This document shows, in pieces, positions 28,123 through 36,445 of a DNA stretch of 64,000 bases; the first letter of the stretch is position 1, and every line of letters begins with the position of its first letter. The position numbers and the translations under genes were made by a program. Origin of the DNA: Aliarcobacter butzleri. Its GTDB lineage: Bacteria > Campylobacterota > Campylobacteria > Campylobacterales > Arcobacteraceae. Where the stretch lies: assembly GCF_900187115.1 (NCBI RefSeq), contig NZ_LT906455.1, forward strand, positions 372,001 to 436,000, in the 5' to 3' direction. The notes beneath the pieces were generated by a model, which was given only the letters and a program-made list of their open reading frames with translations, was not told the DNA's origin and searched no databases.

Positions 28123-28467
28123 ATGGACTGGGGTAAAGTAATATATATTTTCTTTTCGTTAATGTCTTTGACTACAACAGCAGGTTTTTTATATGAACCA
28201 AATGCAATAGCACTGTTTATTGCCGCGGGCGTAAATGTAATTTCTACAATATTAAAGTTAGGTGTTAAAAATTTACTTGCAGCAGAGTTATTAGCTAGTT
28301 CTTTAGTGGCTGATTTACATTTAATTCCATCATTTTTAGTACTAACGTTTACAAATAATTTACCTTTAGCTATATCTTTAGCAATTGGTGCAATAGTTGC
28401 AAACGCTTTCTCAATAGCTTTAGCTTTAATAGAGAGTGCAAAAAGTCAAGATAAGGAAGATTTTTAA
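28123..28467 (+). CDS. Small integral membrane protein (possibly DUF6394)
   Basis: The 114-residue protein consists mostly of four hydrophobic helices ([63 protein letters not shown], and [22 protein letters not shown]) with a short acidic C-terminal tail. I think it corresponds to a Campylobacterota family named DUF6394, but this is a weak recollection. AAAAAGGATAAAA precedes the ATG. The stop overlaps the leuS ATG, so it is co-translated with leuS. Confidence 0.7.
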
Positions 28468-30932
28468 TGGAATATATTTCAAAAGATATTGAAAAAAAAT
28501 GGCAAAATTTTTGGAGTGAAAATCAATCTTTTGAGCCAAGCAGTAGTAAAACAAAAGAGAAAAAATATATTTTAAGTATGTTTCCATATCCAAGTGGTAG
28601 AATTCATATGGGACATGTTAGAAACTACTGTATTGGTGATGCTTTTGCAAGACATTTTAGAAAATCAGATTTTAATGTTTTACACCCAATTGGTTGGGAT
28701 AGTTTTGGAATGCCAGCTGAAAATGCAGCAATAAAACATAAACTTCATCCTAAAAAATGGACTTATGAAAATATTGATTATATGAGAGATGAATTAAAAT
28801 CATTAGGTTTATCTTTTTCAAAAAACAGAGAGTTTGCAACTAGTGATGAACTTTATACAAAATGGGAACAAGAATTTATTATTAAAATGTATGAAGCTGG
28901 AATCATCTATAGAAAATCTGCAACTGTAAATTGGTGTCCACATGATCAAACAGTTTTAGCAAATGAACAACTTGAAGAAGGATGTTGTTGGAGATGCGGA
29001 ACTGAAGTTGTACAAAAAGAGATGCCAGGATATTATATTGGTATTACAAAATATGCACAAGAACTACTTGATGATTTAGAAAAATTAAAAGAAGATTGGC
29101 CTTCACAAGTTTTAACAATGCAAGAAAATTGGATTGGAAGAAGCGAAGGTTTAGAATTTAAATTTGATTTATCAAAAGAATCAAGAGCAAAATTAGAAAG
29201 AGCTTTTACAAAATATTTTGTATTTACAACAAGACCTGATACAATTTATGGAGTTTCTTATTCTGCACTTGCTCCTGAACATCCAATAGTTAAATATATA
29301 GTTGAAAAAAATCTTTTACCAGAGAAAAAAATTAAAGCTATAAAAGCTATGCAAAAAATTCCAGAAAGAGATAGAGCAACTCAAGAAAAAGAAGGAATTG
29401 ATTTAGAAATTGAAGTAATGCATCCATTAACAGGAAAAACTATTCCTGTTTGGGTTGCAAACTTTGTATTAAGTTCTTATGGTGGAGGTGCTGTTATGGC
29501 AGTTCCAGCACATGATCAAAGAGATTTTGAGTTTGCAAAAAAATATAATTTACCAATAAAACAAGTTATTGTTGGTCCTGATGGAATTATTGAAAATCAA
29601 ACAGAAGCTTATACAGCAGAAGGAAGATTAATAGAGAGTGAGAATTTCACTGGAGTTACAAATATAGAAGCTAAAAAAGCAATAATTTATCATTTTGAAC
29701 AAAATTCTTTTGGGATTAAAAAAGTAAATTATAAGTTAAGAGATTGGGGTGTTTCAAGACAAAGATATTGGGGAGCACCAATTCCATTTATTCATTGTGA
29801 AAAATGTGGTTTAGTTCCTGAAAAAATTGAGAATCTTCCAGTTGCATTACCTGAAGATGTTGAAATTACAGGAGAAGGAAATCCTTTAGATACTCATCCA
29901 ACTTGGAAACATTGCACTTGTCCAAAATGTGGAGAAAAAGCTACTAGAGAAACTGATACTTTAGATACATTTGTTCAATCATCTTGGTACTTTTTAAGAT
30001 ATGCAACGGATAATAAAAAATGGAATGAAGTTGGAATATCAAAAGAAGATAGTGATTATTGGATGGATGTTGATCAATATATTGGTGGAATTGAACATGC
30101 GATTTTACACCTTTTATATGCAAGATTTTTTACAAAAGTTTTAAGAGATTTAGGATATACAAATTCAAGCGAACCATTTAAAAAACTTCTTACTCAAGGA
30201 ATGGTTTTAAAAGATGGTGCAAAAATGTCAAAATCAAAAGGAAATGTAGTTGATCCTGATTTGATTATTGATAAATATGGTGCAGATACTGCAAGATTAT
30301 TTATTCTTTTTGCTGCTCCTCCAACAAAAGAGTTAGAGTGGAATGATAGTGCTGTTGAAGGTGCTTTTAGATTTATAAAAAAATTCTTTGAAAGAGCAGA
30401 AAATGTAAATCAAAATGGATTAGATAATTTTAAATCAATAGACCATTCAGCTTTAAGTAAAGAAGAAAAAGAAGCAAGAAAAAAAGTATATGAGGCACTG
30501 TTAAAATCAAATGAGGTATTTACAAAAACTTATACTTTCAATACTTTAATAGCTTCTTGTATGGAAGCTTTAAATGCGCTTCAAACTCAAAAAAATGATA
30601 GTATTTGGGCAGAAGGTTATTATATCTTAACAAATATTTTAGAACCAATTATTCCTCATGCTTGTTGGGAATTATCAAAAAAACTGTTTGATTTGAAAAA
30701 TTTTGATGGAAAAATTGAACTAAAAGAAGAAGTTTTTGCACTTGAATCAATAATTTTAGCAGTAACAGTAAATGGTAAAAAAAGATGCGAAATTGAAGTT
30801 GCTCCTGATACTTCAAAAGATGAAATTTTAGTAAAAGCAAAAATTGCTTCTGCTAAATGGTTAGAAAATAGTGAAATTTTAAAAGAGATTGTTGTTCCAA
30901 ATAAACTTGTGAACTTTGTAATAAAAGGATAG
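28467..30932 (+). CDS. leuS: Leucyl-tRNA synthetase
   Basis: The 821-residue class I synthetase carries the HIGH-type motif [15 protein letters not shown] near residue 41, zinc-type cysteines in [14 protein letters not shown] and CCWRCGTE, the CP1 editing domain with [13 protein letters not shown] and a [15 protein letters not shown] segment, and [13 protein letters not shown]. It charges tRNA-Leu. It overlaps the upstream membrane-protein gene by one base and is followed after two bases by lptE, the same order seen in many Gram-negative bacteria. Confidence 0.97.
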
Positions 30933-30934
30933 AT

Positions 30935-31459
30935 ATGTTTCATACAAAAAAAGTTTTATTAACTATTTTTTCTGTAAGTTTGGCTTTTTTATTTGTTGCT
31001 TGTGGATATAAACCATCAACTTATTATGCTAAAAAAGAGATGGAAGGAAATGTTTATGTAAAACTTGATGTTAGTTTAGTTGACCCTAGAAACTCTGTTT
31101 TAGTAAAAGACGCAGTTACAAAAATCTTGATTCAAAAACTAGATTCAAATTTAGTAGATAAAGAAAAAGATGCAGATGTTGTTATGAATTTAGGGATAAG
31201 TTCTGTTAATTTAAGCGCCTTACAATATGATGCTAAAGGGTATAACAAATTATATAAAGCACAAGTTTTTATAAGAGTTGACTATTATAGAAAAGAAAAT
31301 GGAATAAAAAAATCATTTACAGTTGATGGAGAATATGACTTTGCTGTTGATATAGGTGGAACAATCACTGATGCAAATAGATATGATGCTATTACTAAAG
31401 CTTCTGACCAAGCTGTAAGTGAAGTAGTATCAAGAATTGCAGTACAATCTTTTAAATAG
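30935..31459 (+). CDS. lptE: LPS-assembly lipoprotein LptE-like
   Basis: The 174-residue protein has a lipoprotein signal with lipobox FVAC and C23, directly followed by GYKPSTYYAK, the usual LptE beginning. The rest is compatible with the small alpha/beta LptE fold. Its position right after leuS is the classic context for LptE (RlpB). LptE plugs the LptD channel that inserts lipopolysaccharide into the outer membrane. Sequence conservation in this family is low, so the assignment relies partly on context. Confidence 0.75.
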   Translation: MFHTKKVLLTIFSVSLAFLFVACGYKPSTYYAKKEMEGNVYVKLDVSLVDPRNSVLVKDAVTKILIQKLDSNLVDKEKDADVVMNLGISSVNLSALQYDAKGYNKLYKAQVFIRVDYYRKENGIKKSFTVDGEYDFAVDIGGTITDANRYDAITKASDQAVSEVVSRIAVQSFK

Positions 31460-31461
31460 AT

Positions 31462-32634
31462 ATGAAACTTGATTTAAAAAAAGTAAATTTAGAAGAGTTT
31501 TTAAAATATAAAACTCTTTATTATGACAAGATAGATTTTACGATAGTAAGGTCTTCTTGGAATAAACTTTCAGCGAAAATAAAACTTCCTTTTGTAATTC
31601 ATATTGTTGGAACAAATGGAAAAGGAAGTACAGGAAGATTTTTAGCTCATTATTTACACAAAAAAGAGTTCAAAGTTTTACACTATAGTTCACCTCATAT
31701 TTTAAAATTCAATGAAAGAATTTGGATAAATGGAAGTGATGTTAGTGATGAAAATTTGGAAATTGCTCATAAATTTTTACAAGAGTTATTTGAAATAGAA
31801 CTTTTAGAAAAATTAACATATTTTGAATATACAACACTATTGGCTTTTTATTTATCAAAAGATTTTGATTATTTAGTTTTAGAAGCTGGACTTGGTGGAG
31901 AGTTTGATGCAACAAATGTTGTAGAAAACAATATTTCACTAATTACAACTATTGGACTTGACCATCAAAGTTTTTTAGGAAACACAGTTGAAGAAATAGC
32001 CTCAACTAAAATGCGCTCAGCTGATAACAAAATGCTTATTGGTTATCAAGTCTTTCCTGAAGTTTTAGAAACAGCATATAAAGTAAAAGAGCAAATAAAA
32101 CAGCAAAGAAACAAAGATATAAAAATCATTGAAGTTAAAGAGTTTGATAAATATGAATTAAATCCTAAATTTGCAACTTTTCTAAAAAGAAATTTACATT
32201 TAGTAATTGCTTGTTTAAATGAACTTAAAATTCCACTTGATTTAAAACTTTTTGATGATACGCCACTTTTTGGAAGATGCCAAAAAGTTTTAAAAAATGT
32301 AACTATTGATGTTGGACATAATCCACTTGCTGCATTAGTTTTAGCAAATGAGTTTAAAAATAAAAAAGTAAATCTTATTTATAACTCTTACAAAGATAAA
32401 GATTATGAAACAGTTTTAAAAATACTAAAACCTATAATTAAAGCTATTACAATAATAGAAGTTGAAGATAAAAGAATAGTAGAAAAAGAAGAGTTAGAAA
32501 AACTAATAAAACAATTAGAATTAGCAAATAATAAGACAATAAAAATAGAAGAAAATGAAGAGTATTTAGTATTTGGTTCATTTTTAGTTGTTGAAAAATT
32601 CTTAACTTTGATTGGTTATGATGCAAACTCTTGA
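31462..32634 (+). CDS. folC: Folylpolyglutamate/dihydrofolate synthase
   Basis: The 390-residue Mur-ligase-type enzyme has the ATP-binding loop HIVGTNGKGSTGRF near residue 48, the SSPHILKFNERIWING motif, EAGLGGEFDATNVV, the TTIGLDHQSFLG motif with the metal-binding histidine, and DVGHNPLAA in the C-terminal domain. It adds glutamate to folates. It starts two bases after lptE. Its 3' end overlaps the helicase gene by about 17 bases. Confidence 0.93.
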   Translation: MKLDLKKVNLEEFLKYKTLYYDKIDFTIVRSSWNKLSAKIKLPFVIHIVGTNGKGSTGRFLAHYLHKKEFKVLHYSSPHILKFNERIWINGSDVSDENLEIAHKFLQELFEIELLEKLTYFEYTTLLAFYLSKDFDYLVLEAGLGGEFDATNVVENNISLITTIGLDHQSFLGNTVEEIASTKMRSADNKMLIGYQVFPEVLETAYKVKEQIKQQRNKDIKIIEVKEFDKYELNPKFATFLKRNLHLVIACLNELKIPLDLKLFDDTPLFGRCQKVLKNVTIDVGHNPLAALVLANEFKNKKVNLIYNSYKDKDYETVLKILKPIIKAITIIEVEDKRIVEKEELEKLIKQLELANNKTIKIEENEEYLVFGSFLVVEKFLTLIGYDANS

Positions 32635-34741
32635 AAAAAGACTAGAAGAACTATATATTCAAAAAACTAAAATTGAAGAAGAGATAGTTTTTCTAACAAA
32701 TCAGATAAAAGAAAAAGCTACTTTAAATCAAAAAAAGAGTTTTTCTAAAAATGAAAAGATTGAACTTTTTAAATCATTATTTGTTGCAAGATTTGATATT
32801 TATGCAAAAAAATGGGTTAGTCGTGATGGTTCAAAACAAGGATTCTTTCCTGTAACAAAGACTTTTCAAGGAGAAGATTATACTCCTTTAACTAATTATG
32901 AAATAGAAGAGCATTTAAGAGGAAATCTTTTTTTAGCAAGTTATTGTATAAATCAAAAAAATATGTCTAAATTTGTAGTTTTCGAAATAGCTGATGAAGA
33001 TAAATTTAAACTGCAAATAGCTCTAAACTCTTTAAATATAAAAGCATATTATGAACTTAGTTCTTATAATTCACTTTTTGTTTGGGTATTTTTTGAAGAG
33101 GAAATCTCTTCAAAAATAGCTTTTAATTTTGCTTTATATCTTTTGAAAAAAGCAAATATTAGTGCAAAAACTTACCCAAATAAAGAGTTTGCAACAAAAG
33201 AGAATTTGGGAAATAGTATAGAACTGCCACTTCATTTAAAACATAGGGATAAAAATCGAACAGTTTTTATTGATATGAATACAAATAAAATTTATGAAGA
33301 CCAATGGAGTGTTTTAGCAAATGTTTCAAAGGTTTCAAAACAAACGATTTCTAATTTTGCTGATGTTCCAAATTCAACAAATGTACAAAAAGATTTAAAA
33401 AAGATTGAATTTCCACTACAAAAAATTGAGATAATTTTAGAAGATTATATTTATATACCAACTTTAAATTTATCAAAATCACTAATAAGTAAATTAAAAT
33501 CATTTGCAACTTTTGAAAATCCTCAAATAAAAGTTTTATTAAGTTTGCGAAAACCACTTTTTAACACTCCAAAATATATTAGGTCTTTTGAAGAGAATGA
33601 AAATTTTTTGATGCTTCCAAGAGGATTAAAAGAGACTTTAATAGATTTTTTTAATGTTAATGCAGTTTCATACTCTTTTGTTGATAAAAGAGTTTTAAAT
33701 AAAATCCAAACTAAAACAGTAACTTTTAACTTACGTCCAGAACAAAACGAAGCAATAAAAGAGATTAAAAAATCTGATTACTCTATTTGTGTTGCCCCTC
33801 CTGGATTTGGAAAAACTCTACTTGGTGCAAAAATATTTGAAATAAGAGCTTGTACAACATTAATCGTTGTAAATAAAAATATGCTTTTAAATCAGTGGGT
33901 TGAAAGATTTGTTGATTATTTTGGATACAACAAAAAAGATATAGGATATTTAGGAAAAGGATTTAATAAATTAAATGGTCAAATAGATGTTGCAACAATG
34001 CAAAGTTTGAAAAATGACCCAAAAATTATAGAAAACTACTCTTTTGTGATTGTTGATGAGTGCCATCATATTCCTGCACTTACTTTTGAACAAATTATCA
34101 AAAGTTTTAAAGGTAAATACATTTTAGGACTTAGTGCAACTCCAAATAGAAAAGATGAACTTCAACCAATTTTATTTCAACAGTTAGGTGAAATATCTTA
34201 TGAGTATAAAAAGAAAAAGACACATACAAATAAACTACAAATAATCAGAACGCAGTTTGTAAGTAATGCAGATAACTATGCAACTATTATAAATGAACTT
34301 TGTATTGATGAAGATAGAAATAATTTAATAGTTGACATAATAAAGAAAAATATAGATAGAAAGATTTTACTTTTAACAGATAGAATAGAACATATAAATG
34401 TTTTAGAAAATTTGTTACAAAAAGAGAATATTGATTATATAAGTGTTCATGGAAGTTTAAATAAAAAAGAGCAAGTTGAAAATATGAATTTAGTAAAAAC
34501 TAAATCTCTTATTCTTGCAACAACTTCTTATTTTGGAGAAGGAATAGATTTTCCACACTTAAATACTATTCTTTTTGCAACACCAATCTCTTATTATGGA
34601 CGATTGATTCAATATTTAGGAAGAATTGGAAGAGGAAATCAAGAGTGTTTGGCAATTGATTTTCTTGATTCAAAAAATGCGATGTTAAACTCTGCTTACA
34701 AAAAAAGGCTTGAAGGTTACAAACAAATGCATTATAGATAA
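32618..34741 (+). CDS. Superfamily 2 helicase with N-terminal primase-like (AEP, TOTE-type) domain
   Basis: The protein is about 707 residues. In order it has a coiled coil (residues 2-35), a region that aligns by eye with the archaeo-eukaryotic primase domain described in TOTE-type proteins (about 45-240), and an SF2 helicase. The helicase motifs are intact: VAPPGFGKTLLGA (Walker A), VDECHH, GLSATPNR and QYLGRIGRG. In the primase-like part the metal-binding D-x-D region reads FEIADED (the first position is E, the second A), and the usual histidine before the VWxFFEE strand is F (SLFVWVFFEEE), so nucleotidyl transfer is unlikely. GNSIELPL matches the GNLIALPLQ segment. ATG 32618 or 32621 is preferred to TTG 32612; all overlap folC. 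Confidence 0.78.
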   Translation: MMQTLEKRLEELYIQKTKIEEEIVFLTNQIKEKATLNQKKSFSKNEKIELFKSLFVARFDIYAKKWVSRDGSKQGFFPVTKTFQGEDYTPLTNYEIEEHLRGNLFLASYCINQKNMSKFVVFEIADEDKFKLQIALNSLNIKAYYELSSYNSLFVWVFFEEEISSKIAFNFALYLLKKANISAKTYPNKEFATKENLGNSIELPLHLKHRDKNRTVFIDMNTNKIYEDQWSVLANVSKVSKQTISNFADVPNSTNVQKDLKKIEFPLQKIEIILEDYIYIPTLNLSKSLISKLKSFATFENPQIKVLLSLRKPLFNTPKYIRSFEENENFLMLPRGLKETLIDFFNVNAVSYSFVDKRVLNKIQTKTVTFNLRPEQNEAIKEIKKSDYSICVAPPGFGKTLLGAKIFEIRACTTLIVVNKNMLLNQWVERFVDYFGYNKKDIGYLGKGFNKLNGQIDVATMQSLKNDPKIIENYSFVIVDECHHIPALTFEQIIKSFKGKYILGLSATPNRKDELQPILFQQLGEISYEYKKKKTHTNKLQIIRTQFVSNADNYATIINELCIDEDRNNLIVDIIKKNIDRKILLLTDRIEHINVLENLLQKENIDYISVHGSLNKKEQVENMNLVKTKSLILATTSYFGEGIDFPHLNTILFATPISYYGRLIQYLGRIGRGNQECLAIDFLDSKNAMLNSAYKKRLEGYKQMHYR

Positions 34742-36445
34742 TCACATATATCTTTGCTTCATACTATCTTTGATTTTATCAATTTCTACTAAAATAAAAC
34801 TATCAATACAATCACCAAAATTCTTATCAACATTAAAATCTAAAAATTTTACACCATCATCAAGTGTTAGTTCACTATATTGTTTGTATAAAGTTGGAAC
34901 ATTTACACCAATATTTGATAAAGCAATTTTTAGAGATTTAAAATCTCGTTTTTTATCTTCAAGAGTAAAAAACTCTTTTATATCATGGATATGACTTGAA
35001 TAAGAAAATGGAGTTCTAGCTTCAACCAAGTTTTTTTCACTTGAATAGTAATAGTTATAATAAAAAACTAACATATCTTTTGCAATTGCTGGAAAAGCAC
35101 CACTAATTGAAACTGGACCAAACATATATTTTATATTTGGATTTGCTTTTACATAAGCTCCAATTCCATACCAAAGATAATCTAAGGCTCTTGTTCCCCA
35201 ATATTTTGGTTGCACAAAACTTCGTCCAAGTTCAATAGAGTTTTGTAAATAGAACATAAATTCATCATTAAATTGGAATAAAGTATTAGAATAAAAACCT
35301 TTTGTTCCAAACTCTTTAAATATCATATCAGAGTTTCCAATTCTATAAGCTCCCACAATTTCCAACTCATTTTTATCGTATAAAATTATATGTTGATAAT
35401 AAACATCGTATTTATCAATATCTCTTTTTTTATTAACACCTTCTCCAACTTTTCTAAAAGATATCTCTCTTAATCTTCCAAGCTCTTTTAATACAATAGA
35501 ATCTTCTACATAATCATATAAATATATTTTTTTCCCATCATTTGTTTGTCCTAAAAGTGGAGACTTTTTTAGTTCATTGTATAAATCAATTTTACTAACT
35601 GGATGTGCTATTGCACTTTGTGTCTGGAAAAATGATTTTTTTCCTTTTTTTAGTGCATAAAGATGTTTTTTATATAAATTTACTAAAAAATCTTTATTTA
35701 AACCTTTTGGAGTTATGTTTTCACTTGGGATTATTTGTCCAATTTTTATATTTATATTTTTTGATTTTTTATTAAACATCTCATTTGATAATAAAAGTGT
35801 TGAAAAAGTTTTATTTATAAGTGAAATAGTATAAAAAGTTTTAGAGTTTTTTGCATCTAAAAATATTGGTAAAATCGCCGAATTGCTATTTTTTGCAAAA
35901 TTTAAAAAACCTTTATTCCAAGCTGGATCTTTTACTCCTTTTGGTGTTGCACGACTTACTTCTCCTGCTGGAAAAATGATGATAGCTTCTTCATTTTTTA
36001 AAGCTTCATATATTTTTTTTATACTCTCTTTTGATTGTCTATCTTTGAAATTATCAAGTGGAATCATAAGAGAGTGTAAAGCTTCAAATCCAACTAAAAA
36101 GTCATTTGCTAAAATCTTTACATCTTTTCTTATTTGACCAACAAGTTTTAATAAACATAAAGCATCAAGTCCACCTAATGGATGATTTGCAATTATTATA
36201 ACTTTTCCTGTTGATGGAATATTTTGTAAATCATTACTAGAAACTGTGTAATCAAAATCAAAATAATCTAAAACAGCATCTACAAAATCAAAACCTTTTA
36301 AGTGAGAGTTTTGTGATAAGAACTGATTTATAGAATCTTCATGAACTATTTTTTTTGCTATTTTTAATAACGATTTTTTTAGAACATTTTCTTTTTCTTT
36401 TATTTTTGGAAACTTTTTTTCTATCTCTTTTTGTATATCAATCAT
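34742..36445 (-). CDS. PlsC-type acyltransferase fused to GNAT-type N-acyltransferase (OlsF-like)
   Basis: The 567-residue protein has two acyltransferase domains. Residues about 70-260 carry the lysophospholipid acyltransferase motifs ANHPLGGLD (N87-D94, with the H-x4-D pair) and IFPAGEVSR. Residues about 310-560 resemble the OlsB/hemolysin GNAT family (IVGAYRIGNSD, ELGRSFVQPKYWGTRALDYLWYG, MFGPVSISGAFP). This domain order matches OlsF, a bifunctional enzyme that makes ornithine lipids by N- and then O-acylation. An alternative is a lysophospholipid acyltransferase with an unrelated second activity. It is a single minus-strand gene whose stop abuts the helicase stop. Confidence 0.7.
   Translation of the reverse strand: MIDIQKEIEKKFPKIKEKENVLKKSLLKIAKKIVHEDSINQFLSQNSHLKGFDFVDAVLDYFDFDYTVSSNDLQNIPSTGKVIIIANHPLGGLDALCLLKLVGQIRKDVKILANDFLVGFEALHSLMIPLDNFKDRQSKESIKKIYEALKNEEAIIIFPAGEVSRATPKGVKDPAWNKGFLNFAKNSNSAILPIFLDAKNSKTFYTISLINKTFSTLLLSNEMFNKKSKNINIKIGQIIPSENITPKGLNKDFLVNLYKKHLYALKKGKKSFFQTQSAIAHPVSKIDLYNELKKSPLLGQTNDGKKIYLYDYVEDSIVLKELGRLREISFRKVGEGVNKKRDIDKYDVYYQHIILYDKNELEIVGAYRIGNSDMIFKEFGTKGFYSNTLFQFNDEFMFYLQNSIELGRSFVQPKYWGTRALDYLWYGIGAYVKANPNIKYMFGPVSISGAFPAIAKDMLVFYYNYYYSSEKNLVEARTPFSYSSHIHDIKEFFTLEDKKRDFKSLKIALSNIGVNVPTLYKQYSELTLDDGVKFLDFNVDKNFGDCIDSFILVEIDKIKDSMKQRYM

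Follow-up and report, generated by a model that had tools for sequence, protein, structure and literature searches.

A degenerate primase domain fused to an intact UvsW/XPB-like helicase in the Arcobacteraceae

Why does a housekeeping locus of Aliarcobacter butzleri encode a helicase fused to a primase domain that lacks the residues of its active site? The question is raised by one gene in the 64,000-nucleotide stretch of DNA that was analysed (the window). Its reading frame can start at a TTG or at an ATG and overlaps the 3' end of folC (31462-32634) by 17-23 bases, as seen directly in the sequence. Residue numbers count from the TTG (709 aa) unless the ATG form (707 aa) is stated. All features are summarized in Table 1. 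A sequence-only reading had described the gene as standing alone inside a housekeeping operon, and this setting was borne out: no partner gene accompanies it, and leuS-lptE-folC lies upstream in most orthologous loci where the region is visible. In several other genera, M23 peptidase and bactofilin genes, absent in the window, are found between folC and the helicase gene; those at L071:4556-5850 (+) and L077:5488-6803 (+) overlap the latter. On the other side, the convergent neighbour (34742-36445, minus strand) resembles, by eye, an acyltransferase fused to a second N-acyltransferase-like domain.

Table 1. Features of the primase-helicase locus, in coordinates of the window
Feature	Coordinates	Strand	Basis
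AEP(pseudo)-helicase gene	32612..34741	+	ORF list; TTG start, 709 aa
Alternative ATG start, 707 aa	32618, stop at 34741	+	ORF list
N-terminal coiled coil, residues ~1-38	32612..32725	+	Model shows residues 2-36 of the ATG form as a single long helix
Degenerate archaeo-eukaryotic primase (AEP-TOTE) domain, residues ~43-256	32738..33379	+	PF22548 and model
Motif I position, E125-I-A127 replacing the catalytic D-x-D	32984..32992	+	Alignment with intact homologues
Motif II position, F156 replacing the active-site His	33077..33079	+	Alignment with intact homologues
Motif III Asp, D221, retained	33272..33274	+	Orthologue alignment
XPB damage-recognition / T4 UvsW N-terminal-like domain, residues ~270-362	33419..33697	+	Full-length model
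SF2 helicase core (ResIII and Helicase_C), motifs intact	33713..34738	+	Pfam and orthologue motifs
Upstream operon genes leuS, lptE, folC	28467..32634	+	Names by sequence reading; upstream in most orthologous loci

A primase fold without its active site

The N-terminal region had been aligned by eye with TOTE-type primases. The HMM search agrees: residues 48-248 match the Pfam AEP-TOTE profile PF22548 (1.2e-53, 182.6 bits against a cut-off of 27), ResIII and Helicase_C are also detected in the protein, and the two segments on which the alignment had been based are present as LGNSIELPLHL and VWVFFEE. The predicted model of the domain (pLDDT 90.8) superposes on the Prim-Pol domain of Marinitoga CAPP (7nqd; Z 23.5, 2.3 Å, 193 residues), its closest solved fold, followed by Helicobacter pylori HP0184 (2atz, Z 12.9) and then by the LigD and Prim-PolC polymerases; the Foldseek match is at 4.8e-14. 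CAPP (7nqd/7nqf) is catalytically active and CRISPR-linked, whereas the window protein scores 73.2 bits against a cut-off of 200 with the CRISPR-associated Prim-Pol profile NF040561. Membership in that group was rejected on this score and on the neighbourhood, in which no CRISPR genes were recognised.

Where the window protein has FEIAD and SYNSLFVW, intact homologues from its family and order have IDLDK and SGNGIHIW. Neither the D-x-D pair nor the motif II histidine is thus found in the window protein, at exactly the substitutions (E and A, and F) that had been proposed, and the motif III aspartate is present. Two short segments around the active site are deleted: the first follows motif I, the second contains a conserved Asp-Arg. 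Of the 71 AEP positions that do not vary among 10 intact homologues, the dead domain keeps 28 and has lost 30; the losses take in motif I and the greater part of motif II. The fold-core residues HLxG, W158, LG, PL, D221 and Q231 are kept.

The loss extends to every close orthologue surveyed, since D-x-D is found in 0 of 73 full-length chromosomal orthologues. The motif II histidine is retained in only three, all of them early-branching (G034, G333 and G243). The domain could still be active if its metal ligands had been relocated to E125 together with D128 and D221, and residue 125 is indeed E in 64 of the 73 (K in 5, Q in 4), residue 128 is D in 34 and residue 221 is D in 59. Yet position 128 is variable (besides D, it is S, K, Q, P and others), in no orthologue are the two D-x-D positions both acidic, the histidine is absent in 70 of the 73, the conserved Asp-Arg loop is deleted or changed, and mutation of the corresponding pair in CAPP (AxA) abolishes activity (PMC8211822). 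A shift of the catalytic residues, which the sequence-only reading had named as a possible refutation of its own claim, was therefore rejected on conservation, and a still active primase is scarcely credible. Judged from these alignments, it is near certain that the primase domain is catalytically inactivated.

Degenerate AEPs are known elsewhere. PriX of the archaeal primase is a non-catalytic, AEP-derived subunit; unlike the window protein, it is a separate subunit of a replicative primase and has no helicase fusion. Closer at hand is DUF1882, the family of HP0184 (2ATZ) and the second-best fold family, which is likewise degenerate and likewise lies in a housekeeping operon of Campylobacterota but is a stand-alone protein of 180 aa that keeps the first Asp and the His and lacks a helicase. 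Its AEP kinship has already been published, and HP0184 appears in a list of nucleotide-bound AEP structures (PMC8065100), so that lost motif residues need not abolish ligand binding. The recognition of DNA or nucleotide that the sequence-only reading had suggested would be a plausible role for the dead domain.

DUF1882 can be linked to AEP-TOTE by sequence (6.6e-7; 96.6% in profile-profile comparison). It lies between glyA and a SPOR-like gene (L079-L084, e.g. L079:3656-4198, +) and was detected in 241 of 298 Campylobacterota genomes, whereas all the family-f1 genomes listed lack it. The distributions of DUF1882 and of the helicase gene look complementary, yet at least one family-f1 genome (G257) has neither, which gives no support to a replacement of one by the other. 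The genome of the window contains two glyA copies with nearly identical products (L145:5022-6284, -; L146:1830-3092, +), the first of them in a lysS-glyA-SPOR-trpE/pabB-like operon from which DUF1882 is missing.

The helicase half and the absence of RecG

The helicase motifs, called intact from the sequence, are all present (PPGFGKT at 396-402, DECH at 482-485, SAT and QYLGRIGR), and Walker A and DExH are retained in 88 of 88 orthologues, barring one undetermined residue. From residue 268 to 707 of the ATG form, the full-length model aligns to XPB (Z 25.6) and to T4 UvsW (Z 22.6). The alignment takes in the DNA-recognition domain preceding the helicase, and the protein thus combines this domain with an SF2 core carrying all motifs, as UvsW/XPB-like helicases do. 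T4 UvsW, XPB and the D10 helicases of T5-like phages share both parts but, unlike the window protein, have no primase domain. No full-length relative was found in phages: phage records match the helicase half only, none of them covering 80% of the query.

RecG was searched for because UvsW is its functional counterpart, both enzymes catalysing the same rewinding and fork regression (PMC3778716). In the genome of the window, the sole strong match to TIGR00643 is Mfd. Similarly, RecG was detected in 0 of 30 Arcobacteraceae genomes tested, in which Mfd was the only match (frames of about 1000 aa, with one shorter frame of 410 aa from a fragmented assembly). All four controls outside the family have a RecG of ~570-610 aa besides Mfd, and across the phylum RecG is present in at least 162 of 249 genomes at E <= 1e-118. 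Since Arcobacteraceae lack RecG, the helicase gene, which is present in 92 of 104 genomes of the family, may do its fork-repair work. RecG shares this proposed function (fork regression, branch migration) with the window protein but has a different SF2 architecture, with a wedge domain. The four Arcobacteraceae genera without the helicase (g32, g35, g4 and g79) also lack RecG, showing that RecG loss does not require the helicase gene. Moreover, RecG seems to have been lost once, in a single clade, so that the association of this loss with the helicase carries little statistical weight; the link between the two is suggestive.

Mobile relatives and the chromosomal clade

Relatives of the protein are found on plasmids of Aliarcobacter, Arcobacter, Acinetobacter, Escherichia, rhizobia and others, and those examined retain D-x-D and the histidine. 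The copies of Arcobacter cloacae (pACLO, WP_129014233) and Aliarcobacter cryaerophilus (WP_263515113) have the same domain order and are ~43-45% identical to the window protein over the full length; in contrast to it, the Arcobacteraceae plasmid copies that were examined have DLD and SGNGIHIW, are mobile and lie in an operon with AbiEi/AbiEii-like genes. Intact copies also occur at other loci within the same family and order, and a scan of the genome contigs with intact homologues matched only Campylobacterota and one unclassified MAG. The Campylobacterota intact relatives lie in operons with either an AbiEi/AbiEii-like pair or an ATPase, where AbiEi-like and ATPase are names from sequence reading and AbiEii is the record annotation. 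The operon with the pair (~212 aa and ~295 aa) recurs at L034, L032, L088, L089 and L090, and L085-L087 have in its place an ATPase of ~396-426 aa. The Escherichia albertii copy adjoins a Tn3 transposase. On pAFAEC of Aliarcobacter faecis, a copy of the intact type (L232:4955-7152, -) is split into two annotated genes and is therefore probably broken. None of the mobile or conflict genes that accompany TOTE conflict systems as partners was found at the window locus, and the contrast between this housekeeping setting and the mobile, intact ancestor type fits the reuse of a conflict-system-type enzyme that had been suspected.

In trees built from the recognition domain and the helicase, all chromosomal copies form one clade apart from the intact copies (SH-aLRT 100). 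One row outside the clade of interest (L119) was read through a frameshift, with 40 stops as X, and the positions of L031 (G034), L036 and other long branches are uncertain. A clean deletion of the primase domain is observed in 11 genomes of three genera; the coiled coil (loci L147-L149), the recognition domain and the helicase are kept, and the nine of these genomes that are in the tree form one clade (99). In primase-less G036, the gene is located elsewhere, downstream of a der-like GTPase gene. In genus g2 the primase domain is eroded. Because one sub-clade deleted the domain and retained the helicase, the primase domain is an accessory and not the core of the function.

A possible history and function

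We consider it somewhat probable that a mobile primase-helicase was domesticated and serves as a fork-remodelling helicase of the UvsW/RecG kind, its pseudo-primase being dispensable yet under selection. A plasmid or mobile-island enzyme, AEP-TOTE primase joined to a UvsW/XPB-like helicase, would have reached the chromosome of an early ancestor of the Arcobacteraceae, at or close to the leuS-lptE-folC operon, and would have been domesticated. The helicase and its DNA-recognition domain would have been kept as a duplex-translocating motor of the UvsW/RecG type, remodelling forks and branches in a family without RecG; we infer this functional class (fork regression, branch migration) from the fold and from the absence of RecG. 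The primase domain would have lost its metal-binding and nucleotide-transfer residues early, becoming a pseudo-enzyme. In most species it is still under selection, probably because it serves as a clamp that binds DNA (or nucleotide) and helps to place the helicase on branched DNA; one sub-clade manages without it.

Several observations could be read differently. The dead primase might be a vestige, a passive spacer that is being lost from a protein in which the helicase alone matters. The deletion in one clade and the erosion in another genus are in line with this view, as is the faster divergence of the domain: over all pairs it is 1.82 times that of the helicase, compared with 1.06 in intact homologues. 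However, its dN/dS is 0.015-0.10 in eight close pairs, in most of them near the helicase-domain values, and its length and fold-core residues are constant across the 73 full-length orthologues. The low close-pair dN/dS together with the 1.82-fold divergence show that the domain is relaxed yet under purifying selection. A purely vestigial domain thus appears unlikely, but part of its retention could be passive, given a divergence about 1.8 times that of the helicase and two cases of loss or erosion.

The nature of the motor can also be questioned. The highest Z-score among solved folds is that of XPB-Bax1 (25.6), ahead of UvsW (22.6) and RadD (near 20), which would fit a repair or transcription-coupled helicase of the XPB/RadD kind instead of a fork remodeller. 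A UvsW-like fold alone is no proof of fork remodelling, as XPB, RadD and the phage D10 helicases share it. The protein nevertheless falls far below the curated cut-offs of both families (60.3 against 610 bits for the XPB equivalog profile NF045503; 52 against 720 bits for RadD), and we regard this alternative as very improbable. Finally, the protein might still be engaged in conflict with mobile DNA, either as a chromosomal guardian recognising plasmid or phage replication intermediates or as a competitor of its intact plasmid relatives. Its relatives are mobile and stand beside AbiE-like pairs, and intact copies are carried on plasmids of the same genus. Against this stand the near-universal vertical presence of the gene in the family, its housekeeping operon without a partner toxin or nuclease gene, and a strong purifying selection that contrasts with patchy defence genes; such a role is improbable.

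The domesticated, fork-remodelling helicase that we favour can be extended, more tentatively, to a replacement. Arcobacteraceae might have substituted a helicase captured from a mobile primase-helicase module for RecG; its primase would have become a domain that recognises forks, a primase fold now acting as the wedge of a bacterial motor for fork remodelling. We hold this to be possible but doubtful. The family presents one fused enzyme in an ordered series, intact and mobile, inactivated with the histidine still present, dead but selected, eroded, and deleted, with the same helicase throughout, and with this series one can study the role of a primase fold that has lost its catalytic activity. 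If RecG was indeed replaced in this way, a mobile-element enzyme would have turned into a core replication-repair factor, which would account for the survival of a bacterial family that has no RecG.
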